Shown here: positions 39,911-57,555 of the stretch, piece after piece | Numbering within the stretch: the stretch's first letter is position 1 | Layout: each line of letters starts with the position of its first letter | Source: Planctomycetaceae bacterium | Lineage (GTDB): Bacteria > Planctomycetota > Planctomycetia > Planctomycetales > Planctomycetaceae | Direction: 5' to 3' | Length of the DNA: 64,000 nucleotides | Assembly (NCBI GenBank): GCA_019636285.1 | Contig: JAHBXV010000001.1 | Span: 1 to 64,000, forward strand | Notes under the pieces: model-generated | The model's database searches: none | Told to the model about the DNA's origin: nothing | The model's input: the letters and a program-made list of their open reading frames with translations, nothing else | Translations under genes and position numbers: made by a program

Positions 39911-40672
39911 ATGATTCTTGATCTCTTTCGCCTGGATGGACGAGTGGCGCTGGTCACGGGTGCCGGCCGCGGCCTGGGCCAGGCCATGGCGGTCGGGCTC
40001 GCGCAGGCTGGGGCCAACATTGTCTCGGTCGCACGTTCCGCTGACGCTCCGGAAACCCGCGCGCAGGTCGAAGAAGCGGGACGCCAATTCTGGCATTATT
40101 CTGCCGACTTGCAGGAGGCTTCGCAGCGCGGTGGACTCGTGGATCGCATCGTCCAGGAGACTGGTCGCCTCGACATTTTGGTCAATAACGCCGGAATCAC
40201 CGGCCGACACCCGCCGGAAGACTATCCGCTCGAACACTTCACCGCGGTGCTGGAAGTCCATCTGGTCGCGGCATTCGACCTCAGCCAGCAGGCGGCACGA
40301 GTCATGCTGCCTCATGGCCGCGGGAAGATCATCAACATCGGCTCGGTCATGTGCTTCGAGGGTGGCCTGAACATTCCGGCCTACACCGCAGCCAAACACG
40401 CACTGGCCGGGCTGACGAAGTCACTGGCGGTCGGCTGGGCAGGTCACGGCATCAACGTGAATTGCCTGTGCCCCGGCTATTTTGCGACCGAATTGTCCGG
40501 ATCGCTTCAGCGTGACCCGGTTCGCGGTCAGCAGATTCTGGATCGCATCCCGGCCGGTCGCTGGGGAACCCCAGATGAACTGGCCGGATTGGCTGTCTTT
40601 CTGGCGAGCGATGCCTCGAACTATATGCACGGAAGCGTGATCGTTGCGGACGGGGGCTGGTTATCACGCTGA
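39911..40672 (+). CDS. KduD/gluconate-5-dehydrogenase-like SDR; 3' end supplied by the integrated element
   Basis: 253 aa, complete. TGAGRGLG (cofactor), NNAGI, catalytic Ser in INIGSVMCFEGG, YTAAK, then CPGYFATELS and the C-terminus GSVIVADGGWLSR. It resembles 2-deoxy-D-gluconate 3-dehydrogenase/gluconate 5-dehydrogenase-type oxidoreductases. The last 9 codons after the core AGCGTGATCG (40634-40643) use TTA and TCA, unlike the host-like CTG and TCG codons of the orphan copy at 57514-57555. I infer that the element's left end replaced the original tail while keeping the protein sequence functional. It was originally probably followed by coaB. Confidence 0.92.
   Translation: MILDLFRLDGRVALVTGAGRGLGQAMAVGLAQAGANIVSVARSADAPETRAQVEEAGRQFWHYSADLQEASQRGGLVDRIVQETGRLDILVNNAGITGRHPPEDYPLEHFTAVLEVHLVAAFDLSQQAARVMLPHGRGKIINIGSVMCFEGGLNIPAYTAAKHALAGLTKSLAVGWAGHGINVNCLCPGYFATELSGSLQRDPVRGQQILDRIPAGRWGTPDELAGLAVFLASDASNYMHGSVIVADGGWLSR
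40634..40643 (+). other. attL core of the integrated element
   Basis: AGCGTGATCG inside the last codons of the SDR gene, identical to 57517-57526. With the preceding bases the match extends to 12 of 13 (GG-A/C-AGCGTGATCG). It marks the left junction: host sequence to the left, element-encoded replacement tail to the right. Confidence 0.8.
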
Positions 40673-40746
40673 AACCGCTTGTTTTCTAGGGTTTTCTGCC
40701 GCTTTTGCCCCTTCGGTGGAATCCATCAAAAAACAGCGAAATTCCT

Positions 40747-40781
40747 CGAAATATTTCGCCTCGGGGAGTCAATTGACTCCC
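40747..40781. promoter_or_regulatory. Left-arm integrase/excisionase-type sites (palindromic GGGAGTCAA pair)
   Basis: GGGAGTCAATTGACTCCC (40764-40781) is a perfect 18-bp palindrome made of two GGGAGTCAA half sites. The same 9-mer occurs four times at the right end beside the integrase gene. CGAAATATTTCG (40747-40758), another perfect palindrome, lies just outside it. The distance from the attL core is about 120 bp, as expected of arm-type sites. Confidence 0.75.
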
Positions 40782-40869
40782 GAAAAACGCTGCTGGGTAT
40801 CGCCGACCCACCAAACGAAAGCACCCGGCAGCCGTGAAGCAACCGGGCGCGGAATGGTGATCGGCCAAT

Positions 40870-40909
40870 GAGACAGCCCCGGCCACATTGCTGCAACCGG
40901 GGCCGTCTC
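40870..40909. terminator. Strong hairpin after the last late gene of the element
   Basis: GAGAC-A-GCCCCGG (40870-40882) pairs with CCGGGGC-C-GTCTC (40897-40909), 12 base pairs with one internal mismatch. It lies 20 bp past the stop of the last minus-strand gene (40929). There is no T-tract on the minus side, so it is a likely 3' boundary structure rather than a textbook terminator. Confidence 0.5.
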
Positions 40910-40928
40910 GGGCAGGGGGTCGGACTGG

Positions 40929-41531
40929 TTATTCAGCGAACGTCGACAGGGGCCTGAGTTGCAGCGTCCAGGTTCGCGGCAGGTAGGCCACCGACAGCCG
41001 TTCGTTGTTTTCCGCCGTGGCGACAGCTTTCCCGGTATCGCGTTCGTAGACTCGTGTTCGCGGCGGGAACGATGTCGGGTCGGACGGTCGTTCCTTCACC
41101 GGGCAGGGCAGAAGCAACAGGTTGCCATTGTCGGCAACCGCCGCCCACAGCCTTCTCTGCACCGTCCATTCGCCAGCGTTCAACAGGATGGCGAGCTTGC
41201 CCAATTCACCCATCGGCAGCCCGTTCGCCTTGCTGGCCGGAACCGAGTCAGGGGACGTCGGTTTGAATGTCCGATCATTCGGAACGTCGATCACAACCAA
41301 CCCGATGGTTCGCTGAGCCGCTTCCGCTGGTCTTCTGATGCCATCGGCTTCCGCCTGAATCTCCCTCATCGTGTCATCGAACCGGGCCATTTCCTCCTTT
41401 CCATCGCCGATCTCGACACGCTGGAAAACCGCCGCTCCGGGACTGTCGCCCGCGATGATGGCAGCAGCCGACAGGGAATCGCCGGAGTGAACAACTCGAT
41501 CGTCGCCAACCACAACGAATTCTTTCGACAT
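40929..41531 (-). CDS. Element protein of unknown function (last late gene)
   Basis: 200 aa from the Met at 41531 (MSKEFVVVGDDRVVHSGDSL); 25 upstream open codons are unlikely. It shows a beta-rich N-terminus, a helical middle (MARFDDTMREIQAEADGIRR) and a C-terminal part rich in short strands (RLSVAYLPRTWTLQLRPLST). No recognisable domain and no membrane segment. It is separated by 111 bp from the preceding gene. Given its place after the tail genes it may be a particle component, but this is only positional. Confidence 0.65.
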   Translation of the reverse strand: MSKEFVVVGDDRVVHSGDSLSAAAIIAGDSPGAAVFQRVEIGDGKEEMARFDDTMREIQAEADGIRRPAEAAQRTIGLVVIDVPNDRTFKPTSPDSVPASKANGLPMGELGKLAILLNAGEWTVQRRLWAAVADNGNLLLLPCPVKERPSDPTSFPPRTRVYERDTGKAVATAENNERLSVAYLPRTWTLQLRPLSTFAE

Positions 41532-41642
41532 GATGAATATTCCTTCCAGAATCGCCCGCTGTGCCACGCATGGCCGCGAGCGTGAATTGAGTCGAACAAA
41601 AGACACGAGCCCCGGAGAACGTCAGCCAGGGCGTCAGGTGAG

Positions 41643-42134
41643 CTATTCCGCAGACGCCTCGGGCCACGGACACATTTTCCGTTTCCGGCTGGCCTCCCAT
41701 GTCTCGAGATTGCGGATCATGCCGCTGCCGAAATTGCCCGGCCGCCGGTTCACGCAATGCTGAAGGATCATCGCAGACGCGATCCGCGAGGGGTCTATTC
41801 CGAGCAGTTCGCACCGATGCGTGAACGTCTTCCACAGATCGGAAGGAACATCGATCTCGACCGTCTGGCAGCCCGGATACTTCACCGATGGCCGCTCTTC
41901 GACGGCTTTGACCATTCGCGGAACCGCCATCGGTGAACCGTCTGGTCGCGCCCACTCGTTGTAGAACCGGGCGACTTCGCTAGCTTCCTCGAACGTCCCG
42001 ACAAGCGGAGCATCCGGCATGAAATCCACCGTCCACGCGGTTCGTTCGCCCGGTCTTCTCACCGCTGGGCTACGGGCCTCGACAGGGCGACGGCGGAACG
42101 AACTCAAGGGGCCGTGTGGTATGCAGGTCTGCAC
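41643..42134 (-). CDS. Element protein of unknown function, translationally coupled
   Basis: 163 aa from a GTG at 42134, which shares its first base with the TAG of the preceding gene (TAGTG). The frame is open further upstream but would overlap that gene. The N-terminal part is Pro/Arg-rich. The C-terminal half contains a ribbon-helix-helix-like stretch, QTVEIDVPSDLWKTFTHRCE...IDPSRIASAMILQHCV, which could be a small DNA-binding or dimerisation domain. No other hint of function. Confidence 0.6.
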   Translation of the reverse strand: MQTCIPHGPLSSFRRRPVEARSPAVRRPGERTAWTVDFMPDAPLVGTFEEASEVARFYNEWARPDGSPMAVPRMVKAVEERPSVKYPGCQTVEIDVPSDLWKTFTHRCELLGIDPSRIASAMILQHCVNRRPGNFGSGMIRNLETWEASRKRKMCPWPEASAE

Positions 42135-42478
42135 TATCGCACCCCCTTTCCGCCGCTGAAGTCTCTGCAAACGGGGGGCGTCCATCCGCGAACGTAGCCA
42201 CGGCTTTCGAGTTGCCGGGTCATCGCCTTGCGGGCGTTGTTGTCGGCCGGAGCCAACCCGGCACGAATGCGGTGTTCGGCCTTCGACCAACCACGTCGAA
42301 TCTCTTCGCACATGGCCGCGATTTCGGCGGGGCTCGGGTCGCGTCTTCTGCCGTCGCGGTGCGCGATAGCTTTCTGCCGCTGGGCCTGACGATAGGCGTC
42401 GCTGAATCCGACTTCGGATCGGGCGGGTTCGGATTGTCCGGGCGCGGAGTCGCGCGGACTCGGGGCGTTTGCCACCAT
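42134..42478 (-). CDS. Small element protein with EIAA-x-C / W-S-x-A-E motif
   Basis: 114 aa. The central segment PAEIAAMCEEIRRGWSKAEH closely resembles EEIAAACAAIQLEWSEAERE in the small protein at 45710-45910, so the element carries two paralogous helical modules. N- and C-terminal parts are basic and unstructured-looking. It is the first gene after the 42772-43003 hairpin array and is coupled to the next gene. Function unknown. Confidence 0.65.
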   Translation of the reverse strand: MVANAPSPRDSAPGQSEPARSEVGFSDAYRQAQRQKAIAHRDGRRRDPSPAEIAAMCEEIRRGWSKAEHRIRAGLAPADNNARKAMTRQLESRGYVRGWTPPVCRDFSGGKGVR

Positions 42479-43335
42479 GAGAATGATTCCCCTCGGGAAA
42501 TGGCTCGTGCAGTCGCTAGAAAGCGGTCCAAGGGCCGCCGGGGTCGCTTACCAAACGCGCAGTAAACTGCGCCGCTCCTTGCGGAGCGCCCACGCCAGCA
42601 CGAGCCGTGTATTCCCCTTGATGCCTTGGAGTTTTTTCTACTTGGAAAACGGAACACAATGGCAGAGGTTCCGGTCGGGCAGTTTCTAGCTGCCCGGCGA
42701 CGGGGATCATGCTCGGGACCGTCCACTTTGGCAAGCGCAGTTCCGTAGATTTTTCGCGGCGCCGGTCAGGCTGTTGCAGCGTGCAACACCCTCGGCAGCC
42801 AGTTCAAGTTGCGGGCTGCAACTTGAAAACCAGTCCCATCGCGTGACAGGTTTCGAGTGGACTAACATCGCGTGAGCCCACTTCCGGCCGGATCAAGGTT
42901 GCATCGTGCAACTTTGATTTCCGGGGGCTTCATCTCTAATTGTCGATGCGCGCGACAATTGCCATCTGGCCGCCGCTCTCAACGGTTGCAGCGTGCAACC
43001 GTTGCCAGTGTGCTCGGTCCCATCGTGTGACCAACCACCACCGCATTCGCTCCCAGCCACGTCCTCCACGCCGGACGATGCCGGAGCCATCGAACCGGGC
43101 AATCGCACGCCACGCGAGCAGTCAGGGCTACCCCGGCAGGTTAGGTTCTTCCGGCCGCTACGCGCAGGTTGGTCATCTCGGCGGCGACCCATTTTTCCGC
43201 CAGCGAGGTGCGAAACATGGAAAGCAGCAGCATCAGCCGCGCGACATGTTGTTGTTTTCCGACATTTCGAGTTCTTCGGGCATAAAAGTTATTCGCTCGG
43301 CAGGAAACTGACCAGCATGGACGGGCCGGAAGAAC
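42479..43335. other. 857-bp non-coding region inside the element with hairpin array and inverted repeats
   Basis: No gene is supported. It holds five short palindromes (42772-43003), three copies of a CATCG(C/T)GTGA box, and two inverted copies of CCGGAAGAACCTAACC (43139-43154 and 43326-43341) that bracket its right part. This is the largest gene-free stretch of the element and a candidate cis-acting centre (origin, packaging or partition site, or late promoter). Confidence 0.6.
42772..43003. repeat. Array of five palindromes, mostly GTTGCA-N3-TGCAAC type
   Basis: Palindromes: 42772-42788 (TGTTGCA-GCG-TGCAACA), 42803-42827 (10-bp stem TTCAAGTTGC/GCAACTTGAA), 42892-42918 (12-bp stem with one G-T pair, loop TCG), 42938-42960 (AATTGTCG/CGACAATT) and 42981-43003 (AACGGTTGCA-GCG-TGCAACCGTT). 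Three share GTTGCA-(G/T)CG-TGCAAC exactly. CATCG(C/T)GTGA boxes at 42837-42846, 42866-42875 and 43021-43030 lie between or after them. Confidence 0.85.
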
Positions 43336-43341
43336 CTAACC
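43139..43341. repeat. Inverted pair of CCGGAAGAACCTAACC elements (third copy at 49815)
   Basis: GGTTAGGTTCTTCCGG at 43139-43154 is the exact reverse complement of CCGGAAGAACCTAACC at 43326-43341. A third exact copy is at 49815-49830, and copies 1 and 3 extend into a GGGGTAGC block. The copy at 43326 runs over the stop codon of the 43336-43683 gene. Confidence 0.8.
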
Positions 43342-43683
43342 CGGCGGGGCGTCGGAATCGTCGTCTTCGATGTCTTCAACCGCTGCCCGCTGTGTCCATA
43401 GGCGAATCAATTCTGGTTCGATGTTATCTCGCCAGCGTTGGACCGTCCTTGCCTTATCCACGCGGAACAGCCGTTTCCAGGAGGCCAGGTATGTTCCGTC
43501 ATGGTCTTCAAGAGCGCGCATGACAGACTCTGTCAGGGTATTTGTTTCTCCGGACTCATCTGAGTACGCCGCAAGATAGCCCATCACATCCAATAGCAGA
43601 CCAGAGCATGCGTACCAGTTCCGCCCGTCCTGCAAAGATCTCCACAAAACATCGAAATGGATTTCCGGTTCGTCGTCGCTCAC
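43336..43683 (-). CDS. Element protein of unknown function, coupled to the tape-measure gene
   Basis: 115 aa, acidic (ends EDIEDDDSDAPPG), mostly helical. Its ATG overlaps the tape-measure stop by 4 bp (ATGA). No recognised domain. In tailed phages the gene next to the tape measure is often a chaperone or distal tail protein; its acidic helical character would fit either, but that is inference. Confidence 0.65.
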   Translation of the reverse strand: MSDDEPEIHFDVLWRSLQDGRNWYACSGLLLDVMGYLAAYSDESGETNTLTESVMRALEDHDGTYLASWKRLFRVDKARTVQRWRDNIEPELIRLWTQRAAVEDIEDDDSDAPPG

Positions 43684-45707
43684 GTGAAACGCAACCCCCC
43701 GCCGCTTCGCATCGCGGCTAACATTTGTGTGGATTCTTCCTTCTGTTGCTTCGCCAAATCCTGAATCGCCTTCTTTGTTTCGATCGCGGCTTTCAACTGC
43801 CCACCAGCAGCCGTCTGGCTGAGCCCCATAAAATTGAACATCGCCGCTGATGCCTTGCCTGACTTCGTCGTCGATGCTCCCGGTTCTTCGCCCTCGCCTT
43901 CGGCGTCGCCAGTCGCACCACTGCTACTGCCGCCAGTCGCCACGGCGGCCACGTTAGCGGCTGCACGCTGTCGCAAGGCGTCCAGTTCCGCTTGAAGCAT
44001 AGCGACTTGAGACGATGCCGCCGCACCACTGCCCGCTGTTTTTTCTTCCAGGGCCGCACCAGTCGCGTCCGTGATCGACTTCATGCCATCGTTGGCAGCT
44101 TGCCCAGCCGCCGCAACAGCGTCTTTCATGGCCGCCAATCCGGCATGCTGGAACTGGTCGGATCGAACGATGCCGTCGCCAGTGTCAGGCGTCATGCCGC
44201 GAGCACGCCGCTGGGCTTCGATACGGCGACCGCGTTCCGCTTCTTCCTTCATGTTGACGCCGGAGATTTGCTCCAACGCCCAACCCATCGCGCCGCCTTC
44301 GCTGGCGGATTCAAGGATGTAATCGCTGATCGCGTTGACGGTCTGCTGCCACTTCGCCATCACGGCATCAGCAGCCCCTGTGAACAGTTGCACGAGTCCG
44401 GCGGTGATTTGTGCCCACGAGTCGAGCAGTGTTGAACCCAGCGTCGCAAAGGCTCCTGAGATGTCGCCGCTGAGCAGTTTGCTCGCGATGGCTCCAAGCG
44501 TCTCGCCGAACATAGCATGAATCGCCTCCAGCCCCTGCGTCATGACCAGTCGCAATCCGGTCATCGCGATTTGTCCGGCCAATGCCAGATCCCCACTCTG
44601 AACAGCAGCCACGATGCCGCCGACCGTGTCACGAACGGTCGTCAGGATGCCGCCGAACGTCGACGACACGAACTCCGCGAACGCCTTGCCGGACGCCGTG
44701 AATCGCACCCACGCATACGCACCAGCCCCCACGGCGGCGACCAGTAGACCCATTGGTGAAAGGATCGCACCGACCACGGACGCTACAAAACCGAATGCCG
44801 CGCCAACGGCCGACATGACGGTCAGCAGTCCGCCGATCGCAGCCCCCGCACCAACGAAGACCGCTCCAATGGCGGTGATCGCCGTTCCGACCGCAGCCAC
44901 GCCAATCGCGATTTTCGCAACAGTGACAATCAGGGCGTGATTCTCTGCTATGAACTTTCTTACCCCTTTGACGATCACCAGAAAGCTATCGAGCGCCTGT
45001 TGTGCCATTGGAGCCACGGCGGCCCCAATCTCATAAATCGTCGCTCCGATCACCCGGCGAACCCGATTGATTGCATCGGTGATTGATGCGGCTGCTTTGA
45101 CCGATTCCGGCGAGGGGGACAACCCGAGTTCCTTGGCTTCCGCCCGCAGTGCCCGAATGTCTTTCATCATCGGCAGCAACTTGCGACCGCCCTCGCCGAA
45201 CACCGCCATTGCTGATGCGGCCCGCTTGCTCGGGTCTTCGATGTCGCCGATCGACTCCGCGATGGTTTGGAACTGCTCATCCGGCGACATGGACTGAATC
45301 GCCTCTAGAGACAACCCCATCTCTGCCAGAGCTTCTTTTGTCTTGACCGACTCGGGACCGATGCCGCCTAGGTTCTTCTGCATTCGTTTGGCCGCGTTTT
45401 CAACCTCTTCCATCGAAGCGCCGGATTGTTCCGCCGCGAAACCGAGTTCCGATAAGGCTCCAACCGACATGCCAGTGCGTAGGCTCATCTTGTCGAGAGC
45501 GTCGCCGACACCGGCGAAGTAGGTCACGGCGCCAGCGAGCCCACCAACCACCGAAGCACCAGCCGCCGTGACCGTGGCACCAATCCCCATGATGCCTGAG
45601 CCGAACGATTGCAGGTTCGCCTGGGCTTGCTTCAGCCCCTTCGTGAGATTGTCTTTCACTCCCAGGCTGACCCATGCACGGCCCGCCATAATATCCGCTC
45701 GCGACAT
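43680..45707 (-). CDS. Phage tail tape-measure protein
   Basis: 675 aa. The N-terminus (MAGRAWVSLGVKDNLTKGLK, QANLQSFGSGIMGIGATVTA) and the MSLRTGMSVGALSELGFAAEQSG-type block are typical of tape-measure proteins of the TP901/minor tail family. Long hydrophobic Gly/Ala-rich segments (about 255-340) and a C-terminal coiled-coil region (about 560-675) follow. A strong Shine-Dalgarno AGGAGG lies 7 bp before the ATG, inside the end of the preceding gene. Family knowledge: it sets tail length and is threaded through the tail tube. This is the clearest evidence that the element makes, or once made, a tail structure. A length of about 675 aa would suit a tail of roughly 100 nm. Confidence 0.88.
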   Translation of the reverse strand: MSRADIMAGRAWVSLGVKDNLTKGLKQAQANLQSFGSGIMGIGATVTAAGASVVGGLAGAVTYFAGVGDALDKMSLRTGMSVGALSELGFAAEQSGASMEEVENAAKRMQKNLGGIGPESVKTKEALAEMGLSLEAIQSMSPDEQFQTIAESIGDIEDPSKRAASAMAVFGEGGRKLLPMMKDIRALRAEAKELGLSPSPESVKAAASITDAINRVRRVIGATIYEIGAAVAPMAQQALDSFLVIVKGVRKFIAENHALIVTVAKIAIGVAAVGTAITAIGAVFVGAGAAIGGLLTVMSAVGAAFGFVASVVGAILSPMGLLVAAVGAGAYAWVRFTASGKAFAEFVSSTFGGILTTVRDTVGGIVAAVQSGDLALAGQIAMTGLRLVMTQGLEAIHAMFGETLGAIASKLLSGDISGAFATLGSTLLDSWAQITAGLVQLFTGAADAVMAKWQQTVNAISDYILESASEGGAMGWALEQISGVNMKEEAERGRRIEAQRRARGMTPDTGDGIVRSDQFQHAGLAAMKDAVAAAGQAANDGMKSITDATGAALEEKTAGSGAAASSQVAMLQAELDALRQRAAANVAAVATGGSSSGATGDAEGEGEEPGASTTKSGKASAAMFNFMGLSQTAAGGQLKAAIETKKAIQDLAKQQKEESTQMLAAMRSGGGLRFT

Positions 45708-45709
45708 TG

Positions 45710-45910
45710 CTAAACCTCCTCGCCTGTTAACTGTGAATAGTGGATGTCTGCCGTTGGGTTCCTAAAAGCGCTGCGCCGCTCGCGTTCGGCCTCCGACCAT
45801 TCTAACTGAATCGCCGCACAAGCCGCCGCGATTTCTTCCAAGGTAGGCACATATGGCGCGTTATCGGTTTGCAGGTCGTCGGGTTCCATCAATTCGGGGA
45901 CCGTGTTCAT
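45710..45910 (-). CDS. Small element protein with EIAA-x-C / W-S-x-A-E motif
   Basis: 66 aa from the Met at 45910 (MNTVPELMEPDD), whose ATG overlaps the preceding stop by 4 bp; five more open codons upstream are unlikely. The core EEIAAACAAIQLEWSEAERE parallels the 114-aa protein at 42134-42478. It carries the Shine-Dalgarno of the tape-measure gene at its 3' end, two bases separating stop and ATG. Function unknown; a small tail-assembly or regulatory role is possible. Confidence 0.65.
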   Translation of the reverse strand: MNTVPELMEPDDLQTDNAPYVPTLEEIAAACAAIQLEWSEAERERRSAFRNPTADIHYSQLTGEEV

Positions 45911-46572
45911 TCTGTCACCTCGCAACAGGGGTCGCCGTGCCTTGCTTCCGCGCGTCGGACCGCTTCGTTAATCAGGCTGCCGTGCGGATCAAGCGGATTG
46001 ACCCAGAGTAGTTGCCGTGCGGCGTTCCAACCGACCCGCCAGCGCTGTGCGGTCTTGGCTTTCGCAATCTGCTTTTCAGTCGGTTCGATGCCGTCGCCGC
46101 GTTCCACGAGAGCGGCATGACGGGCGAATCTCGTCTCTGCCTCTTGAAGCCAGCCGATGATTGTCGCGCGATTGGAAAGGCACCATTGCGGGCCGCCTGC
46201 GTCCATCAATGCGGCGCGACCTTCGCACGTTTCACACCAGGCACTCGGGATATTCAATTCCGCGAGCAATTTTTTCAACTCGGAGCCAACGCCATAAGTT
46301 GGCGCTGGGCGCGGAGTTATGGCGATAGCGCTATGGATATCTGTTTTTCCGCTGCGAACTCCACTGGACGAATGAGCCGCGCGATGTGATTGTGCGTTGT
46401 TAGCCTGTGCTGCGAACACCGCCCGGTATCGCTTCACATCTTCTGGCGACACCCCTTCCGCAGTTCCGAGACAGATAGCTTTCAGGCGCCGTGGTAAATG
46501 CTCACACAACGATTCGTCAAACGGCTGAACTTCGCCGCAATGCTGGTCTTGATTGGGATTGCCGGTTTTCAA
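45907..46572 (-). CDS. Element protein of unknown function with a CxxC pair
   Basis: 221 aa. The N-terminal part contains SPEDVKRYRAVFAAQANNAQ. The central segment is VGSELKKLLAELNIPSAWCE, followed by CEGRAALMDAGGPQWC (Cys pairs that could bind metal), and the C-terminal region is basic and helical (KQIAKAKTAQRWRVGWNAAR). No domain assigned. It overlaps the next gene by 4 bp. Its 5' end is overlapped by the plus-strand zinc-ribbon frame at 46498-46758. Confidence 0.65.
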   Translation of the reverse strand: MKTGNPNQDQHCGEVQPFDESLCEHLPRRLKAICLGTAEGVSPEDVKRYRAVFAAQANNAQSHRAAHSSSGVRSGKTDIHSAIAITPRPAPTYGVGSELKKLLAELNIPSAWCETCEGRAALMDAGGPQWCLSNRATIIGWLQEAETRFARHAALVERGDGIEPTEKQIAKAKTAQRWRVGWNAARQLLWVNPLDPHGSLINEAVRRAEARHGDPCCEVTE

Positions 46573-46758
46573 TTGGTTGTCCTTTGCCGCCTGATTGACT
46601 CACAATCTGCCAGCCAGTTGCCGGTTGACGTCTCTGTCGGAACCGGGGTTTGCCCCCATTGTGGCTATCGAACACCGGCCGAACCGGATGCCCTCTTTTT
46701 CACATGCGACCATTGCCGCCGCACGTCTTACGGCCCATCGAACATCGTCACAGACTGA
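46498..46758 (+). CDS. Small membrane protein with zinc ribbon, antisense to the late genes
   Basis: 86 aa. A single hydrophobic helix (FAAMLVLIGIAGFQLVVLCRL) is followed by CPHCGYRTPAEPDALFFTCD and HCRR, a CxxC-x17-CxxC zinc-ribbon pattern that is hard to get by chance. It would start at 46498 or at an internal Met (46540). It overlaps the ends of two minus-strand genes and fills most of the 175-bp gap between them. It is the only plus-strand gene candidate in the element, so it might be a separately expressed morphon. Existence is moderately supported. Confidence 0.5.
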   Translation: MLTQRFVKRLNFAAMLVLIGIAGFQLVVLCRLIDSQSASQLPVDVSVGTGVCPHCGYRTPAEPDALFFTCDHCRRTSYGPSNIVTD

Positions 46759-48103: not shown

Positions 48104-48118
48104 TTTCGTTGGCTCCTG

Positions 48119-49730: not shown

Positions 49731-49814
49731 CTTAACTGCTCCAAAGTGATTTCGAGATTACGGTGTGTGTGTGGGAATTATCCGGTCGGAAATTGCGGGC
49801 TGCGCGAGGCAGCG

Positions 49815-49830
49815 CCGGAAGAACCTAACC
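49815..49830 (+). repeat. Third copy of CCGGAAGAACCTAACC
   Basis: It is identical to the inverted pair at 43139-43154 and 43326-43341, and is followed by CCAGCGGGGTAGC. It lies in the 176-bp gap between the HExxH gene and the terminase-small-like gene. Confidence 0.8.
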
Positions 49831-49906
49831 CCAGCGGGGTAGCTAGGGGCCACCCAGCGAGCGCCGCCGAAGGAAATAAACGGCGCCCGCCAGGTGACCG
49901 CCTCGA

Positions 49907-50899: not shown

Positions 50900-50935
50900 C
50901 GTTCGTCCGATCCTGATTCGTTGGTCATCGGCGGG

Positions 50936-51655
50936 TTAAAACGCCGTATCGGTCTGGAGATTCTCGCGGGCCGTGTTTTGAACAGCCTTTGCGGCATCCC
51001 ACGCGCGGTGCAAATCGATCAGCGTGCTTTCGGCCGCAGTCCGCTCGCCGCGCAGCCGTTCCAGTCGCGAGGTTTCGCCGGTCAGTTGTGCGGGGGTAAT
51101 GCCCCGAGCCCGTTCGCTGGCAATGTGCGCCGCGAGTTGCTCGATTTGCCGGGTAACCCGCCGGATGGCCTGATCGGTCTCGTCCACCTTCAGACGGGCG
51201 GTTTCGGCAGCGCGAGCAGCCCGGTTGTACTCGTCTTTCAGCGGTCCGACTGCCGTTTGTTGCAGATCCTGTGCAGCCGTGCGGCCAGCTTGTTCAACAT
51301 CCAGGAGCCGTCGCACCTCATGTTGCAACGGAACCACGCTTTCGCGATGCGACTGAACGGCCCGTTCGAGCGCCGCGTCAGCGTCGGTAATTTGCTGGGA
51401 GACGGCTGCCCGTTCAGCCACGGCGGCAACGCCAGCTTGAACGTCAGCGACCAGACGGCGGCGGCGGTGAAGGGTTTGGACGTCGTTGCGCAAATCAGCG
51501 GGCGACTTGTGGGCCGCTTCGAGCACGTCGACGACTTCATCGGGGGCGGGGTCGCCGCCGTCAGCGACCTCGATCACTAGTTCGCGATATCGCGCAGCCC
51601 GTTCCGCTTCGCGGGCGCCGGCCAGTTGAGAAACTTTCGACAGCAGATCAGTCAT
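50936..51655 (-). CDS. Coiled-coil element protein (scaffold-like)
   Basis: 239 aa from the Met at 51655 (MTDLLSKVSQLAGAREAERA); 22 upstream codons lack support. Nearly all of it is Ala/Arg/Glu-rich heptad sequence typical of scaffolding or tail-associated coiled coils. It is the first gene downstream of the GTACGG/CCGTAC cluster at 51807-51869 and hence may start the late transcription unit. No enzymatic motif. Confidence 0.6.
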   Translation of the reverse strand: MTDLLSKVSQLAGAREAERAARYRELVIEVADGGDPAPDEVVDVLEAAHKSPADLRNDVQTLHRRRRLVADVQAGVAAVAERAAVSQQITDADAALERAVQSHRESVVPLQHEVRRLLDVEQAGRTAAQDLQQTAVGPLKDEYNRAARAAETARLKVDETDQAIRRVTRQIEQLAAHIASERARGITPAQLTGETSRLERLRGERTAAESTLIDLHRAWDAAKAVQNTARENLQTDTAF

Positions 51656-51806
51656 GGTCAATTCCTTCGATTGGGGTTCTGAAAGTGAGATTCGGTTCGG
51701 TCCTATGTTCGCTTCGGTCATCGGGTCGAGTCGGTCAGGTCATCTTTGCGGCACCTCCGAGCCGCCTTGGGTTTCCCGGTCTAATCCGGCAGACAGACGG
51801 GGTATG

Positions 51807-51869
51807 GGGGTACGGCCCCCCCTTATAGGGGCCGTCCGTACCCCGTACGGTCAGGGGGGTACGCCGTAC
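51807..51869. promoter_or_regulatory. GTACGG/CCGTAC box cluster with nested hairpins (candidate early/late control site)
   Basis: GGGGTACGG (51807-51815) pairs with CCGTACCCC (51836-51844). A competing stem is ACGGCCCC (51812-51819) with GGGGCCGT (51828-51835). GTACGG at 51845-51850 (within palindrome CCGTACGG, 51843-51850) pairs with CCGTAC (51864-51869). In all, four boxes lie in 63 bp, between the RepA-like gene and the first gene of the following unit, where a repressor or antiterminator would act. Confidence 0.7.
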
Positions 51870-51895
51870 AGACGACCCGACGACGTAACAACTGT

Positions 51896-53365
51896 TCATG
51901 CTCGCGACCCCATCAGATAGTCCGCGAGTCGATAGGTCACACACTGGTTGCCACGAACGTTTGACTCTTGCTTTGAGACTCGCCCGTCCTGTTCCATCTG
52001 GGCGATGATCCGCAACGCCCGGTCGCGGCTGAATCCGGTTTCCTCACGGATTTTGGTTAGCGTCAGTTCGCCACCAGCCAGTCGAATCTTCTCAACAATC
52101 TGCCCGGCCGCTTCGCCATCCTTGTTCGCCTGCCGTTGCTCTTGCTTCGTCGGCAGCCGCTTCAACTGGTTCGGGTCGCAATCATCAGCGGGCGACCACA
52201 GCGGATACGTCCACGCCAAGCAAAACGGCTCAACTGGTGCGAATGACCGGACCGCCGCGTCGACCACTACCACGTCCTCGGCTTCATGGGGCCGCACGAC
52301 GACGTGAGCGTCGACGGCTCGCGCCATCGCTCCGGCCCCGCTTCCCACGTCCACGACGTCTTTGTCGGACTGGCCGCCCTTGCTCGCATGGTGGACGAGC
52401 AGGTAAGCCGCTCCAGTCTCACGAGCCATCGTGTCAATTGTGTTGTAGACGACCTTCATGTCGTCGTTGCTGTTCTCTTGAGTGCCGCCGAGCAGCACGC
52501 GGTACAGGGCGTCGATAATCACCAAGAGGTAAGGCTCGCTTGCCCGGCGAACCATCTTCCCGATTTCTTCCAGCCCCATGAGGCGCCCGCGCAGCGACAC
52601 CACGTCCAGCCGTCCAGTCAGGTCATCGACCGACAGTCCCATCGCCTGGGCCACGGTTGAAATACGGCTCGCCAACACCTCGGGATGTAACTCGTTATCC
52701 ACGAGCAGCACTCGACCGGGAGCGCAGTTGTAGCGGCCCCATAGCTGCCGACCCGTCGCAACCGAAATTGCGATGCCGTACGTCATGAAGCTTTTGCCGA
52801 CCTTCGATTTCGCATTCAGACTGCCCGTCTCGCCTTGGCGAATAACCCCGTCGATCACCGGGCGCCGGAGCGTCGGGTAATCCTGCACCAGCTTCGACAG
52901 CGTCATCGGGGCCACGCGGGCTTTGCCGACCCCTTCATTCTCCAGGTCGTCACACAATCGCCGGAGTTCGGCGACAGCTTCGTCGACGTCGATGTCGGGT
53001 CGTGTCTGCTGTGCCAACCGCTCGACCAGCCGTCGCCGTCGCCACGCCTTGCGGACCAATGCCCAATTGCCAGCCGCCTGACCCGTCAGCAATTCACCAT
53101 TGAGCAGCGTTGCCGCGAGTGTTGAACCCTCATGGTGACTCAATGGGCGTTCAGGAATCGAGTCGGAAGCCTCTTGCAGTTCCCAAATGCTGATGGGTCG
53201 GTCGTCACCATGCTGGCGATAGACGAACCGCGCGAGCAGCAGTAAGTCGCGTGCAGCCGGATCGGTGATCGCAACCGGCTCAACACTGAGTTCGTCGATC
53301 AGCCTCGGGCAGAACACCAGCGCGGCCACGAGATTGCATTCCGCCTGTGTCAGATTATTCGCCAC
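51896..53365 (-). CDS. RepA-like AAA/RecA-fold ATPase with C-terminal winged helix
   Basis: 489 aa from a GTG at 53365 (VANNLTQAECNLVAALVF), which overlaps the stop of the preceding small gene by 11 bp; the frame is open upstream, but that stretch overlaps a coding gene. An N-terminal domain is followed by an ATPase core: Walker A NAKSKVGKSF, VLLVDNELH, Walker B YLLVIIDALYRVL, and a sensor region YLLVHHASKGG. This matches plasmid RepA/DnaB-like hexameric helicases. A C-terminal winged helix (about 415-485, ELTLTKIREETGFSRDRALR) could read DNA. It is probably the replication initiator or helicase of the element. Confidence 0.82.
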   Translation of the reverse strand: MANNLTQAECNLVAALVFCPRLIDELSVEPVAITDPAARDLLLLARFVYRQHGDDRPISIWELQEASDSIPERPLSHHEGSTLAATLLNGELLTGQAAGNWALVRKAWRRRRLVERLAQQTRPDIDVDEAVAELRRLCDDLENEGVGKARVAPMTLSKLVQDYPTLRRPVIDGVIRQGETGSLNAKSKVGKSFMTYGIAISVATGRQLWGRYNCAPGRVLLVDNELHPEVLASRISTVAQAMGLSVDDLTGRLDVVSLRGRLMGLEEIGKMVRRASEPYLLVIIDALYRVLLGGTQENSNDDMKVVYNTIDTMARETGAAYLLVHHASKGGQSDKDVVDVGSGAGAMARAVDAHVVVRPHEAEDVVVVDAAVRSFAPVEPFCLAWTYPLWSPADDCDPNQLKRLPTKQEQRQANKDGEAAGQIVEKIRLAGGELTLTKIREETGFSRDRALRIIAQMEQDGRVSKQESNVRGNQCVTYRLADYLMGSRA

Positions 53366-53543
53366 CGGGATTGCCCTCCCGCGTGATCGATAGGGGGCGA
53401 AAACCGCTGTGTTTGAGAAGAATCCGCAGGGCCTCAAGCCGTTGCTGTAACGGCTTGCCATTCCATCGCGGATAAGTGGCAACCCGAATGTCGATCACCT
53501 CGGGCGTGTCGTCCGCTTCTTGCGTCGCCTTAATCATCGCCAA
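53355..53543 (-). CDS. Small coupled element protein
   Basis: 62 aa. It contains DIRVATYPRWNGKPLQQRLE and LKHSGFRPLSITREGN. It overlaps the upstream gene by 10 bp and the RepA-like start by 11 bp, both as translational-coupling arrangements. Function unknown. Confidence 0.55.
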   Translation of the reverse strand: MAMIKATQEADDTPEVIDIRVATYPRWNGKPLQQRLEALRILLKHSGFRPLSITREGNPGGE

Positions 53544-53737
53544 CCGCCTTTCTTCTGGACGGTCGCGAGCAGCGCATCAGCCGCCGACCAGACGTCTGAA
53601 ATCTGGTCCTGTCGCGCGGTCTGTAGCCATCGCGTCACGATTTCTGCCGGGTTCGGAGCCGTCGTGAGAACAGCCAGGGCGTCGACGTCGTCGGTCTGGT
53701 CGCAAGCTGGGTCGAACAGGGATCGGGTCTGGCTCAT
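53534..53737 (-). CDS. Small coupled element protein
   Basis: 67 aa, mildly acidic N-terminus (MSQTRSLFDPACDQTDDVDA) and a helical C-terminus with several tryptophans. It overlaps its neighbours on both sides (4 and 10 bp). No family recognised. Confidence 0.55.
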   Translation of the reverse strand: MSQTRSLFDPACDQTDDVDALAVLTTAPNPAEIVTRWLQTARQDQISDVWSAADALLATVQKKGGWR

Positions 53738-53916
53738 CGGGCCACCCCCAATCGCCGGAGAAGCCTTACAAAACGGCCTGCCAGTGAAACGGGGCCGCGT
53801 GACTCGGTCGCGAGCCCGCAGCGTAGGCGGGCCGCGTGATAGGCGAGTTCAAGACGTTCGCGATCGTCTGGTGGCAAACCCGGATTGCCTGCCGTGGCAA
53901 TTGTGCTACGATTCAT
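53734..53916 (-). CDS. Small basic coupled element protein
   Basis: 60 aa, basic, helical (RLELAYHAARLRCGLA, RFVRLLRRLGVAR). Its stop overlaps the next ATG (ATGA). First gene of the run leading into the RepA-like gene. Function unknown. Confidence 0.5.
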   Translation of the reverse strand: MNRSTIATAGNPGLPPDDRERLELAYHAARLRCGLATESRGPVSLAGRFVRLLRRLGVAR

Positions 53917-53976
53917 TTCGTTGTCCTTCGAGAATGCCCGCGAACCATGCTCCCCAGCCGGTCGCGGGCGTTTTTG

Positions 53977-54366
53977 TTACCACTCCAGCGCAAGTTCGGC
54001 CTCTTCTTCGCACTCACGGTCCATCGCCACATGGAAAGCGTTGTTCCATGCCTGCGGGTCCGGTTGCTGGGCAATCCAGGCTTGCAGCTCTTCAAGAATC
54101 GAATCCGCGAACTCGCGGTCGGCGCCATCGCAGACCAGTGACAAATCGAGAGCACAACTCGCCACGCCTGCGGCCTCGTCGAAGCACTCGCCAAAGTTGG
54201 ATTCCTCTGGTCGCTCGCCCGTCTGCTGCAATTCGTAGGCGGCCTGCATCCTGTGCAGAGACTTCCGATATTCGGCCAAGCCGCGTTGCGGCGTCATGGT
54301 CGGGTCATCGACATGCGCGAACTGGAGACGTTCGCCAGGGGGCTGAATCAGTGTCAGTGTGGGCAT
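53977..54366 (-). CDS. Acidic element protein of unknown function
   Basis: 129 aa from the Met at 54366 (MPTLTLIQPPGERLQFAHVD); 73 further open codons upstream, Arg/Pro-rich, overlap the downstream part of the HTH gene region and are rejected. Acidic and helical (REFADSILEELQAWIAQQPD). No motif recognised. Its acidic character is compatible with a DNA mimic or anti-host factor, but this is speculative. Confidence 0.55.
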   Translation of the reverse strand: MPTLTLIQPPGERLQFAHVDDPTMTPQRGLAEYRKSLHRMQAAYELQQTGERPEESNFGECFDEAAGVASCALDLSLVCDGADREFADSILEELQAWIAQQPDPQAWNNAFHVAMDRECEEEAELALEW

Positions 54367-54421
54367 GGTCGGTTCCTTCGGTTGAGAGTTGAGCCCGGCC
54401 GCGACATTGCGACGGGGCTGG

Positions 54422-54688
54422 TTAAACCCATTCCTTCGATGTCGCGATTTGCTTTCGCCTGGGCTTCGCGGCCTGGGCCTGCTGGGCTGCCGCTGGACGA
54501 TTGCCACGAGTCGCGAGAAAGGCGTCAAAATCCTCGGGCAAGATTCGCCACCGTGGCTTTTTGCCGCCTGGGGTTCGGCAGACATTCGTGGCCGCGAGTT
54601 GCTTCGAGACGATCCAGTACTTCACCGTCTCAATGTCGACTTGCTTGGCCTCGGCAATCTGCTGGACGGTCAGCGCGTCTTTCAGCAC
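54422..54688 (-). CDS. Excisionase-like / MerR-type helix-turn-helix protein
   Basis: 88 aa from a GTG at 54688 which overlaps the preceding stop by 7 bp. The HTH is LTVQQIAEAKQVDIETVKYW, a domain-17/AlpA-like or excisionase fold, with a wing (CRTPGGKKPRWRILPEDFDAFL) and a basic tail. Such proteins direct excision or regulate the integrase. Position between the integrase side and the replication genes fits. Confidence 0.72.
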   Translation of the reverse strand: MLKDALTVQQIAEAKQVDIETVKYWIVSKQLAATNVCRTPGGKKPRWRILPEDFDAFLATRGNRPAAAQQAQAAKPRRKQIATSKEWV

Positions 54689-54852
54689 GGCACCGCCTCC
54701 GTGGTTCGTGGTGGCTCACCGTAAAGCCGCTGGAGCTCCTCCCGGTCTTTCTCCAGTTGCTTCGCTTCGGCGACAATCTTGTCAGTCGATCGCAGGATGC
54801 GGGCGAGAACGACAGCTTTGTCGATCGCTTTTCGCGGGTCTGGTTGCGGCAT
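54682..54852 (-). CDS. Small helical element protein coupled to the excisionase-like gene
   Basis: 56 aa from the Met at 54852 (MPQPDPRKAIDKAVVLARIL), with the Shine-Dalgarno-like GGAG just upstream; an alternative start lies 10 codons upstream. Helical/coiled coil (EAKQLEKDREELQRLY). It overlaps the HTH gene by 7 bp. Function unknown. Confidence 0.5.
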   Translation of the reverse strand: MPQPDPRKAIDKAVVLARILRSTDKIVAEAKQLEKDREELQRLYGEPPRTTEAVPC

Positions 54853-54890
54853 GTTTGTCTCCTTTGAGTGCCGTACAACCAACCCGGCGA

Positions 54891-55029
54891 GCGTTAGCGT
54901 TTGCGTTAGCGCTAACGGGGCCGCGCAAGCAAAAACCCCAGCTTTCCAACTGGAAAACCGGGGTTCGAGATTTCAGATTTTTTTCAGAGCGTTAGCGGAG
55001 CGTTAGTCCAGGTTCCTTTCGTTAGCGCG
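54891..55029. promoter_or_regulatory. Cluster of GCGTTAGC operator-like boxes
   Basis: GCGTTAGCG at 54891-54899; a perfect 14-bp palindrome CGTTAGCGCTAACG at 54904-54917; GCGTTAGCG at 54989-54997; GCGTTAG at 55000-55006; CGTTAGCGCG at 55020-55029. These surround the terminator of the 55003-55887 gene and precede the next leftward unit, so they look like a repressor or initiator site. Confidence 0.7.
54931..54965 (-). terminator. Rho-independent terminator after the 55003-55887 gene
   Basis: On the minus strand a bipartite stem AACCCC/GGGGTT with inner TTTCC/GGAAA is followed by TTTTT (plus-strand 54931-54935). It lies about 38 bp beyond the stop at 55003, separating the integrase-proximal unit from the following early genes. 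Confidence 0.8.
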
Positions 55030-55887
55030 GAGCGCCTTCCAATCGTCCAGTTGTCGAATCCGGCTGTCGCCGACGTTCAGCACTTTTGCCCATCGTTTCG
55101 CGGTCCAGCTTGCGGAACCTTTTTCGATCAGCAGCAGCCGCCGGAACTTTTCGTCAGTCTTCAGTACCTTGCTGGCGAGAATCTCCGCTATTTGACCGAC
55201 ATGCTCCTCCCCGGTGGTCGCCAGCACGATTCTTTCCCGAAGTTGATCGTACGGGTCTGATTCCTGATTCTCCCGATCGGCCAGTTGAACACCAGTTTCC
55301 GCGACTGCCCCAGCGATAGCCGGTTGTTCGACGGCAGCCGGTTCGCCAATCGGCTGTGCAGCTTCGCGGGGTTCTTCGACGGCAGCCGCCCCCCGTTTTG
55401 CTCGCGGGTCTGGGATCGATTCAACCCGAAGGCGGGCCCGTGGATTCTCCCATTGGGCGAGAATCTCGCCAATCTTCTCTTGATCCGTTTCACTGCCGTC
55501 GTCGGCAATGTAACCACGGGCCACAACCCCGGCCGCTGAGAGTCTCACTTCGAGAAGCCCCGCCCCGATCGACACCGTGGCATCGCGAACAAAACCGCCG
55601 TCACGAACGACACCAGCACTGACAAGCGACTTTTGCTGGACGGCCTTGAAGCATCCCAGCCCACCAGCGACATAGAAGAATTGCCGCTCGGGTTCTGGTC
55701 CGTCACGGAATTGGACAATCGCATCTAGCCGCCATTCGATGAATCCGGCGTCCGTGAGCCGCTTTAGGGTTTGTTGCCCGATCGCTGGCACTTCGTCCCA
55801 TTGAATCGGCGACCACGTCTCTGGGCCATTAAGTAGCCACCCTGTCATCGCGCTTTGAAATGGTTCCGTCCAGTGAATCTCTGTCAT
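55003..55887 (-). CDS. Element protein with possible terminal DNA-binding domains (regulator-like)
   Basis: 294 aa. The N-terminal part (about 15-60, GPETWSPIQWDEVPAIGQQTLKRLTDAGFI) reads like a winged-helix. A Glu/Pro/Ala-rich linker follows (about 165-215). The C-terminal segment (SASWTAKRWAKVLNVGDSRI) looks like a helix-turn-helix. It is the gene directly after the integrase, with its own terminator and GCGTTAGC boxes at its 3' end. I suggest a regulator of the element, without family support. Confidence 0.6.
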   Translation of the reverse strand: MTEIHWTEPFQSAMTGWLLNGPETWSPIQWDEVPAIGQQTLKRLTDAGFIEWRLDAIVQFRDGPEPERQFFYVAGGLGCFKAVQQKSLVSAGVVRDGGFVRDATVSIGAGLLEVRLSAAGVVARGYIADDGSETDQEKIGEILAQWENPRARLRVESIPDPRAKRGAAAVEEPREAAQPIGEPAAVEQPAIAGAVAETGVQLADRENQESDPYDQLRERIVLATTGEEHVGQIAEILASKVLKTDEKFRRLLLIEKGSASWTAKRWAKVLNVGDSRIRQLDDWKALRANERNLD

Positions 55888-56012
55888 CGTGCCAGCCCCT
55901 GATTGCTGGTCGCCTGAATGAGAAAAGCACGCGGGAAACTGGCTTCAGGAAAACCAGCTTGTCGAACCGTCGCTCTATCCCGCGCGTGTACGATTCTACG
56001 CGATTTGCACCA

Positions 56013-57314
56013 TTACCGGGACTGTTCCGCAACCTCGGGCCAGAGCCATTCGCGGACCGTGTTGACGGCCTTCCGCAGCCGATCATCCGAAACGCCGTGG
56101 CGATAGTTTCCGGCCATTGTGTTGTCGCTGTGTCCCATCACGCTATTGACGCTAACCTGATCGGCGCACTCGCCCGCGATCGTCTCGAATTGGTGGCGCA
56201 GGCTGTAGAACCCCCTGCCCCTGTGCTTCGGAATCTTCAGTGTCGTGACCAGTAGATCGAACCGCCGCGCAATCACGTTGATCGTCGACACTCGGTCAGG
56301 GTTCGTCATGCTGGGTCGCAACTGCATGAACTGCCCGCCCTTGTTGTTGAGAAACACGCGGTCACTGTCGGCGGGATCGGCGGGTTCTGGCCGTTCGGCA
56401 ATCGCCGCTTTCAGCGCCTCGATCGTCTCGGGCCACAGCGGGATGCGACGTCGAACGCCGGTTTTTTGTCGCGCGAACTCCACCCAACCGTTTTCCAGGT
56501 CCAGGGCTGATTGGGTTAGGGTCGAGATGTCCGTGTTGCCGAACGCACAGTTCAAACCCGCCAAGATCATCCCGCGCATGACAGGATTGGCGCGTCCCTT
56601 GATGGTCTTGCCGTCCACCTTGACCGCCTTCCCGGCCAAATGGTCGAGCATCTTCCGCAGTTCGTCGGCAGTGAATATCCGGGGATCGCGGGCGTTGCGG
56701 GCGACCAACAGGTCTTTTTTCTTCGGCCGCTTGAATGCGGAGCCGTACCGCACTGGCTTGCCATCCAATAGGTTTTCGGAAGCGTATCCGAAGACGATCC
56801 GACACCGCATGATGCGAGACAGCAGCGTCACGACGTTGACACCCTTGGCCAGCGCCGCGCGGAATGCCGCGAAGTCATCCGGCTGGAGCGTCGCGACGTC
56901 ACGGTCGCGCCCGAAGTGTCCGGCGATCAGATTGCACGTCCCGATATAGCTGTCGAATGTCGCCCGCGACAGTTCCCCGGAGTCGACCAGCGATTGCCGA
57001 TGGTTCAGAAACGAGTTGCACGCCTCGGCGATAGAGCAGCCTGCCACGGCGGGCGCTCCGTCAGCAGACGGAACCGGCAGCCCTTTCGCCAAGTAGGGCC
57101 ACTGCCTGTTAAACTCTTCCAGGGCAGTAGCCGCCGCCGCGTTCTGGTTATCGAACGCGACAACCTGACCGTTGACGACGCGACCCCATCGGCCGAAGAA
57201 AAACAAACGGCCTTTGATCTTCTTCGAGAATCGGCCAGTGACGTGGTATCCAAGCGGGAACGTCGGGTAGGGGCGTGACGGCTTGGTGGGCGCGATGGTA
57301 CGATTGGCAGACAT
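56013..57314 (-). CDS. int: Tyrosine recombinase (integrase) of the element
   Basis: 433 aa from the Met at 57314 (MSANRTIAPTKPSRPYPTFP), with a start 22 codons upstream rejected because it would cover an arm-type box. An N-terminal arm/SAM-like region is followed by a catalytic domain. The Lys-containing hairpin is FARQKTGVRRRIPLWPETIE, box II is FYSLRHQFETIAG (LRH plus HxxT), and the nucleophile Tyr is in MAGNYRHGVS after MGHSDN. The usual Arg I position in TGLR is occupied by Asn (AGLNCAFGNTDISTL). It is next to attR and GGGAGTCAA boxes, as expected of an element integrase. Confidence 0.92.
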   Translation of the reverse strand: MSANRTIAPTKPSRPYPTFPLGYHVTGRFSKKIKGRLFFFGRWGRVVNGQVVAFDNQNAAAATALEEFNRQWPYLAKGLPVPSADGAPAVAGCSIAEACNSFLNHRQSLVDSGELSRATFDSYIGTCNLIAGHFGRDRDVATLQPDDFAAFRAALAKGVNVVTLLSRIMRCRIVFGYASENLLDGKPVRYGSAFKRPKKKDLLVARNARDPRIFTADELRKMLDHLAGKAVKVDGKTIKGRANPVMRGMILAGLNCAFGNTDISTLTQSALDLENGWVEFARQKTGVRRRIPLWPETIEALKAAIAERPEPADPADSDRVFLNNKGGQFMQLRPSMTNPDRVSTINVIARRFDLLVTTLKIPKHRGRGFYSLRHQFETIAGECADQVSVNSVMGHSDNTMAGNYRHGVSDDRLRKAVNTVREWLWPEVAEQSR

Positions 57315-57347
57315 GGGGCTTTCCTCGGTAACAGCGGGGATTGCTTC

Positions 57348-57433
57348 TGACTCCCGGTAGCTCGAACTGCCGGGAGTCAACTTTCTACTTCCACGCTACC
57401 CCCACGGCTTCCGGGAGTCAAACCGGGAGTCAA
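57348..57433. promoter_or_regulatory. Right-arm integrase-type sites (GGGAGTCAA boxes)
   Basis: TGACTCCCGG at 57348-57357 (inverted) and CCGGGAGTCAA at 57370-57380, 57411-57421 and 57423-57433 (direct). The first two form an inverted pair with a 12-bp centre. They lie between the integrase start and the attR core, and match the palindromic pair at the left end (40764-40781). Confidence 0.85.
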
Positions 57434-57513
57434 CAGCACGCACGGCAGCAGCCACGATGCCAGAAAACACTACAGAAATAGACTTTCTGAGCTATCGTGA
57501 CGTCAGGAATAAT

Positions 57514-57555
57514 GGCAGCGTGATCGCGATCGATGGAGCCTGGCTGTCGCGGTGA
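57514..57555 (+). pseudogene. Displaced 3' end of the SDR gene (GSVIAIDGAWLSR-stop)
   Basis: The 14 codons GGC AGC GTG ATC ... CTG TCG CGG TGA encode GSVIAIDGAWLSR-stop, matching the C-terminus GSVIVADGGWLSR of the SDR at 39911-40672 in 10 of 13 residues. Synonymous and other differences follow the core AGCGTGATCG (57517-57526). No in-frame homology continues upstream. It is the part of the host gene cut off by insertion. Confidence 0.85.
57517..57526 (+). other. attR core of the integrated element
   Basis: AGCGTGATCG, identical to 40634-40643. Element sequence lies to the left and host sequence, the original SDR tail, to the right. Confidence 0.8.

Follow-up and report, generated by a model that had tools for sequence, protein, structure and literature searches.

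How site-specific integrases change their target without killing the gene that they enter is an open question, and prophages are known to reside in the icd gene, as exemplified by e14 and P21. The accessible part of one report describes how attP can carry sequences that replace part of icd or of a tRNA gene, with which the target works after integration (PMC10111431). For genomic islands, the accessible part of the Islander report states that a regenerated target and a displaced fragment mark the island ends, and its table lists 159 islands with a 5′ tDNA fragment and 3760 with a 3′ fragment (PMC4383910). Islands in protein-coding sequences amount to 43.4% (PMC12424338). Here we analyze a 64-kb stretch of DNA, positions 1-64000 of contig C1 in a 6.37-Mb genome (termed the window), which harbors a phage-like element of 16.9 kb, as measured between two copies of a short core. 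Based on the junction anatomy, the end repeats, the orthologous gene tails, a survey of the integrase family and an integrase tree, we propose that this element integrated in the 3′ end of a short-chain dehydrogenase/reductase (SDR) gene and replaced the lost codons, and that its lineage probably switched to this gene from tRNA-Ser. We assign a probability of about 90% to this explanation as a whole.

The SDR gene end is present twice, flanking the element

The SDR open reading frame (ORF), of which the best model is TIGR01832 kduD at a score below the model cutoff and the best solved-structure relative is 4z9y, terminates in GSVIVADGGWLSR-stop. A second SDR-like end at 57514-57555 reads GSVIAIDGAWLSR-stop. 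The two ends share the 10-bp core AGCGTGATCG, which is found exactly twice across the window, the left copy falling within the 3′ end of the SDR gene (Table 1). The triplet preceding the core is GGA on the left and GGC on the right, a one-base difference that limits the exact identity to 10 bp. On the 3′ side of the core, 17/29 positions are identical between left and right, compared to only 16/60 bases on the 5′ side. The encoded tails of 13 residues align with a BLOSUM62 score of 53; in 200 mononucleotide shuffles of 23.3 kb, the highest-scoring C-terminal 13-mer of each shuffle averages 16.7 and never exceeds 31. The likeness of the two tails is far above chance. Joining the outer flanks in silico yields an unbroken SDR ending in HGSVIAIDGAWLSR-stop. 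An earlier note on this DNA had pointed to the SDR end at 40672, to a 14-codon fragment near the integrase, to the shared 10-bp core and to proteins that stay alike past the core as the DNA diverges, all of which we find as it described them.

An open frame beginning MPENTTEIDFLSYRDVRNNGSVI at 57457-57555, present in attR and also in the excised circle, crosses the core into the SDR tail; it is probably a product of chance.

The right-hand fragment fits the native SDR end

The SDR search covered 149 genomes including the window's own, 43 of which match at E 1e-60 or better (42 besides its own), and the tails were compared at the 29 orthologue loci fetched. All 29 orthologues end in GS-x4-DGGW[LM]-x2-stop. 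The nucleotides of the right fragment are closer than those of the left tail to 26 of the 29 and farther from the other three (L015, L016 and L032), and a position-specific scoring matrix of the 29 tails gives log-likelihoods of -15.0 for the right and -25.8 for the left. In the two relatives whose SDR matches best (L009 and L010), the gene terminates in GSVIAIDGGWLSR and GSVIAIDGGWLAR. In addition, the left tail uses the codons TTA and TCA. Among Leu codons, TTA accounts for 0.6% in six host ORFs and 1.9% in ten element ORFs; among Ser codons, TCA accounts for 5.8% and 14.2%, respectively. The fit to orthologous tails and the codons thus argue that the right fragment is the native SDR end and the left tail that of the element, and their places relative to the cores require the same. 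This is the direction that the earlier note had proposed; its prediction of direct adjacency of SDR and coaB in relatives failed (0/29).

In the reverse polarity, the left 3′ end would be native and the right fragment the element's copy. The left tail does keep the invariant DGGW where the right has DGAW, the mean protein-level match to the 29 orthologues is equal (7.45/10 for the left, 7.41/10 for the right), and three orthologues stand nearer the left tail. Against these, the nucleotide fit favors the right by 10.8 log units, the left tail carries codons that are scarce in the host, and it is the left tail that lies between the cores, with the right fragment outside; we regard this polarity as very improbable. 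The right tail has an Ala at the position occupied by Gly in 29/29 orthologues, which the left tail retains, and this Gly loss (DGA for DGG) would suit a displaced piece from which selection has gone.

The left tail in turn has an Ala where 29/29 orthologues have Ile or Val. Such a residue might mean that the restored C-terminus alters the enzyme, as in regulated gene integrity; the conserved DGGWLSR is retained, however, and no regulatory logic was seen, which makes this variant improbable. As for the donor of the left tail, none of seven SDR paralogues inspected in the same genome ends in DGGWLSR. The orthologue nearest the left tail is L015, with 23/29 bases, a stretch too short to name a donor.

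End repeats match the attP layout of a tRNA-using integrase family

Exact copies of GGGAGTCAA occur five times in the window, all at the two ends of the element (Table 1), and 0/100 shuffles reach five copies, the most being three. A shorter inverted GGGAGTC at 57349-57355 stands beside the P-side copies. We infer that these repeats are arm-type integrase sites. ATG at 57314 is the likelier integrase start, because the TTG start at 57380 would place an arm site within the gene.

The integrase search took in 297 genomes, 76 of which, including the window's own, match at 1e-25; named records among the remote relatives are from Planctomycetota. A scan of genome contigs for the integrase returned three remote relatives alone, at 35-38%, and a search across 392 genomes of the phylum at E 1e-95 gave nothing beyond the window's own and genome G036. 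The DNA outside the integrase was read at 92 sister places, comprising 32 loci (29 plus the three remote ones), G036:C53, G043:C107 and 58 further places. A whole tRNA gene adjoins the integrase in 80/92 of them, with its 5′ end toward the integrase in 78 and the opposite orientation in two. A tRNA 5′ half was recognized by eye in three more places (L044, L050 and L058), two of them at a contig end.

In six of 14 elements, the first 39-42 nt of the tRNA region, a stretch that closes shortly after the anticodon loop, are repeated at the far end, about 5.7-38 kb off (G166, G153, G018, G141, G069 and one of G047). No such repeat was found for G056, G015, two of G036, G137, G192, G041 and G116, where under 4 kb of element-side DNA was searched for G056, G015 and the two of G036. 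The whole tRNA stands on the integrase side in all six two-ended elements, an anatomy that would place the crossover in the anticodon loop and have the element carry the tRNA 5′ half.

The window element keeps the spacing of these sisters. A strict pattern located the arm pair in 32 of the 78 sisters whose tRNA runs forward, and the anticodon lies at 87-94 from the second arm in 30 of these (68 and 100 in the other two). The right core of the window occupies +86 to +95 from the last arm, the place of the anticodon loop in sisters. On the other side, the tRNA-using sisters G166 and G153 have an inverted arm pair GGGTGTCAAAGACACCC at +117 from the anticodon, and the window has its own at +125 from the equivalent base (both worked by hand).

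Alternatively, a partial duplication or pseudogene of the SDR tail might merely lie beside an unrelated integrase, with no integration at all, a view that can appeal to neither empty site nor circle having been observed. It has to contend with end repeats confined to the two ends of the element, a core at the usual distance of the family from the arms, phage-like genes in the interval and sister elements of the same layout, and we give it next to no credence.

Several sister places show particular arrangements. At L067 (G187) and L181 (G279), the tRNA beside the integrase runs the opposite way, and the predicted core at L067, TTCGAAC, looks like the T loop of tRNA-Glu. At L050 (G160:C159), a tRNA-Arg-like 5′ half is followed by other sequence, transposase-like by eye, and not by a tRNA 3′ half. 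In G116 (L087, L209-L210; G116:C1), the integrase-side tRNA is called Ala and its 5′ half is absent from 58.5 kb; a 12-nt match in a tRNA-Met-like 5′ half (by eye), 19.8 kb away from the integrase, was left out of the count. An array of tRNA genes may play a part there.

The integrase tree points to a probable switch from tRNA-Ser

The window integrase shares 48% identity with that of G166, 44% with G153 and 48% with G056. In a tree of 35 integrases, it falls in a four-row clade with these three tRNA-Ser users at a support of 99/95, and the five rows nearest to it are all tRNA-Ser users. The G153 element, which occupies tRNA-Ser(CGA), is of similar size (16.7 kb) and shares four genes with the window element, namely the left-end gene, the primase/helicase, the excisionase (Xis)-like gene and the integrase. 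By integrase kinship and arm layout, the window element thus fits the tRNA-using family, and it differs in that its target is not a tRNA and no 5′ half is carried. On these sequence relationships, the SDR gene probably took the place of tRNA-Ser as the target in the window lineage, with the arm-core-arm attP layout retained, the direction of the switch being our reading of the tree. A search for a leftover tRNA 5′ half on the window's P side gave a score of 18, which 182/200 shuffles attain; the only tRNA of the window is at 7769-7856, and none lies near the integrase.

Integration might also have taken place without a recent switch from tRNA to protein gene, with SDR use being old in this branch. 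The long branch of the window integrase, which has no close sister, and the other protein-gene users in the family would suit an old association; the whole tRNAs at 80/92 places and the five nearest tRNA-Ser users speak for a switch, and we consider old use unlikely, though the least unlikely of the alternatives.

The preferred explanation would then run as follows. The integrase would descend from a planctomycete family whose usual target is the anticodon loop of a tRNA gene, with restoration of the tRNA 5′ half. The 16.9-kb element would enter by tyrosine-integrase recombination within AGCGTGATCG, which encodes SVI near the SDR end, its attP holding a 29-nt replacement that directly follows the core on the flank opposite the integrase. 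With a crossover close to the 3′ end of a protein gene, the segment that restores the target would be found across the core from where the sisters have it, in the spacer that precedes the P′ arms. The replacement would restore the last codons, so that the SDR keeps its conserved C-terminal DGGWLSR, and the native end would be separated from its gene by the whole length of the element. The simplest origin of the replacement tail would be capture from an earlier host. The claim of the earlier note that the element carries its own replacement 3′ end accordingly gains support from the core pair, the orthologous tails, the integrase and the end repeats.

Other candidate protein-gene targets in the family

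Two further elements of G047:C1 adjoin protein genes. For the integrase at 2546137 (L141, L211-L213; around 2545900 and 2588600), TGGATATCGAG is repeated 41.3 kb off, and 145 bp separate the far copy from the inverted arm pair that follows it. On the integrase side, TGGATATCGAG occupies +94 to +104 relative to the second arm, and an imperfect tandem copy occupies +83 to +92. The gene at the far end closes VDIEANTRHAAKREFAREFAGDE-stop, and the integrase side has DIESNTRRTAIQPASGEDA-stop; over the eight codons past the core, 13/24 bases and 4/8 residues agree (ANTRHAAK and SNTRRTAI), and the ends differ thereafter. The element lies at the 3′ end of a gene for a zinc-ribbon membrane protein, the C-terminus of which is apparently replaced. 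This gene has one weak relative besides itself in 39 genomes. The element is a probable second protein 3′-end case, resembling that of the window and weaker.

For the integrase at 411446 (L051, L189-L190, L214; around 411200 and 447000), TGGACAGGAAGTC is repeated 34.3 kb off, the far copy 147 bp before an inverted arm pair and the other at +85 to +97 relative to the second arm. Within its first 30 kb, this element yielded chance-like repeats only, and the predicted core was not among them. The displaced end reads ATGGACAGGAAGTC, and the MMPL-like gene beside the integrase, which has relatives, reads GTGGACAGGAAGTC, in frame with an upstream ATG. The start region of the MMPL-like gene may thus have been replaced, with the native ATG displaced and a GTG or the upstream ATG supplied.

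Integrases also adjoin protein genes at G043:C107 (L084, McsA-like) and G056:C374 (L134, ABC ATPase-like), and a NuoI-like gene lies several hundred bases beyond the integrase at G008:C440 (L164), all three named by eye. The predicted core falls within the first codons of the McsA-like gene in G043 and several hundred bases before the NuoI-like gene in G008. The far end of the G043:C107 element is absent from the 5.9 kb up to the contig end.

These cases suggest a generalization that we hold at somewhat less than even odds. The family might keep a near-fixed attP frame (arm pair, ~92 bp, core, ~117-147 bp, inverted arm pair) and retarget through changes confined to the core and to a short adjoining segment, tRNA or coding, that may lie on either flank. 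What is restored could thereby be the 5′ half of a tRNA, the start codon of a gene or the 3′ end of a protein gene, and the window element and the two G047 elements would be natural products of retargeting.

Gene content of the element and its surroundings

All recognized genes of the element, namely the tape-measure-like, primase/helicase-like, helix-turn-helix (HTH) and integrase genes, lie on the minus strand (Table 1). The integrase matches PF00589 at E 2.7e-07, above the cutoff, and phrog_1. No capsid, portal or large terminase was recognized on comparing 16 element proteins against PHROGs and 17 against Pfam, a weak negative since most PHROGs carry no function; only the tape measure, primase/helicase, integrase and Xis-like proteins were recognized.

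Table 1. Features of the SDR locus and the integrated element (window coordinates)
Feature	Position	Strand	Basis
KduD-like SDR gene, reconstituted: host part 39911-40643, putative element-supplied 3′ end 40644-40672	39911..40672	+	TIGR01832, 4z9y
attL, left core AGCGTGATCG	40634..40643	+	exact pair with 57517-57526
Putative replacement 3′ end carried by the element, VADGGWLSR-stop; the V codon opens with the final base of the core	40644..40672	+	between cores; poorer fit to 29 orthologue tails
Putative P′-side arm-type sites, inverted pair GGGAGTCAA/TTGACTCCC	40764..40781	.	repeat search; comparable pair in G166, G153
Left-end element gene, function unassigned; homologue near left end of G153 tRNA-Ser element	40929..41606	-	33% over 123 aa
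Phage tail tape-measure-like protein	43680..45707	-	phrog_8462, E 1.3e-26
AAA primase/helicase-like protein	51896..53482	-	domain/PHROG search; 40% identical homologue in G153 element
HTH protein, candidate excisionase	54422..54688	-	HTH_17; phrog_66 excisionase, E 1.2e-05
Tyrosine integrase	56013..57380	-	PF00589; PHROG integrase
Putative P-side arm-type sites, three direct GGGAGTCAA at 57372, 57413 and 57425 (last two 12 bp apart)	57372..57433	+	same paired layout in sisters
attR, right core AGCGTGATCG	57517..57526	+	+86 to +95 from last arm, the anticodon-loop place of sisters
Putative displaced native SDR 3′ end, AIDGAWLSR-stop, orphaned	57527..57555	+	core pair, orthologue tails
CoaB-like host gene (DFP domain), adjoins displaced SDR end	57617..58294	+	domain search

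Downstream of the SDR gene, coaB was found in 0/29 relatives (up to 1.5 kb of DNA). It matched in 14 of 15 relatives, on another contig than SDR or 1.9 Mb off (G001), the remaining relative being a genome of 64% completeness. Gene order downstream of SDR is thus unconserved, and the failed coaB prediction neither supports nor refutes integration. A second SDR tail was absent downstream in 40 orthologue stretches of 547 to 20,000 bases each (best score 25 versus 53), a set covering the 42 orthologue genomes except G073 and G031; a tail behind a longer element or a contig end would escape notice in these stretches. A pattern check beside 29 sister integrase loci (L039-L067) found no SDR tail either. 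Among viral contigs and phages, there was no relative of the integrase and no exact SDR tail; the phage collection does contain 167 records with SDR homologues, each less than 60% identical.

Besides the equal protein-level match and the three orthologues nearer the left tail, several points tell against the proposed explanation. The genus is represented by this one genome, and the empty site is reconstructed rather than observed. No circular form of the element, nor a close relative, was found in viral contigs and phages. SDR-coaB adjacency is seen in no relative and may be peculiar to the window lineage. Given the Ala of the left tail, the full function of the restored SDR is unproven. Nine of the 92 sister places show no tRNA (L051, L070, G043:C107, L134, L141, L149, L150, L152 and L164, with only 166 bases available at L150). 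Moreover, the window integrase has a branch length of 1.19, and this long branch weakens its exact placement; since the P side retains no remnant of a tRNA 5′ half, the case for the switch comes from the tree and the geometry.

Comparison with known systems

Target restoration as such is already known; the SDR target and the switch from tRNA to protein gene appear to be new, and the novelty of the SDR target is likely but not proven. Literature records on planctomycete integrases, as judged by titles and the opening of abstracts, include none found on this family. The family combines a near-constant attP geometry with targets that comprise many tRNAs and some protein genes, and with restoration on either side of the core. 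Constant geometry and varied targets make retargeting testable by swapping the core and the restoration segment, which would yield attP/attB pairs for planctomycetes. To our knowledge, genetic tools for these bacteria are few. Seen in this family context, the window element is of more interest than as a single case.

Similar to the icd prophages, in which attP replaces part of the target gene according to the accessible part of the report (PMC10111431), the window element appears to supply the end of the gene that it enters. Compared to these prophages, its identity block spans only 10 bp and its replacement 29 nt, alike in protein and not in DNA; moreover, the target is a KduD-like SDR gene, and the integrase comes from a family that mostly uses tRNAs. 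The ends are marked as in the tRNA islands of Islander, and the sister integrases use the anticodon loop; going by the 159 versus 3760 islands in the accessible part of that report, the 5′ half carried by the sisters would be the rarer orientation. The window differs from these islands, as far as that part describes them, in that its target is not a tRNA and its element would carry a 3′ end, where the sisters carry a 5′ half (PMC4383910). The integrases dedicated to dusA resemble that of the window in serving a protein gene, as the accessible part of their description has it, and differ in that their target is the 5′ end of dusA, a likeness drawn from the description of the target and not from sequence (PMC4482086).

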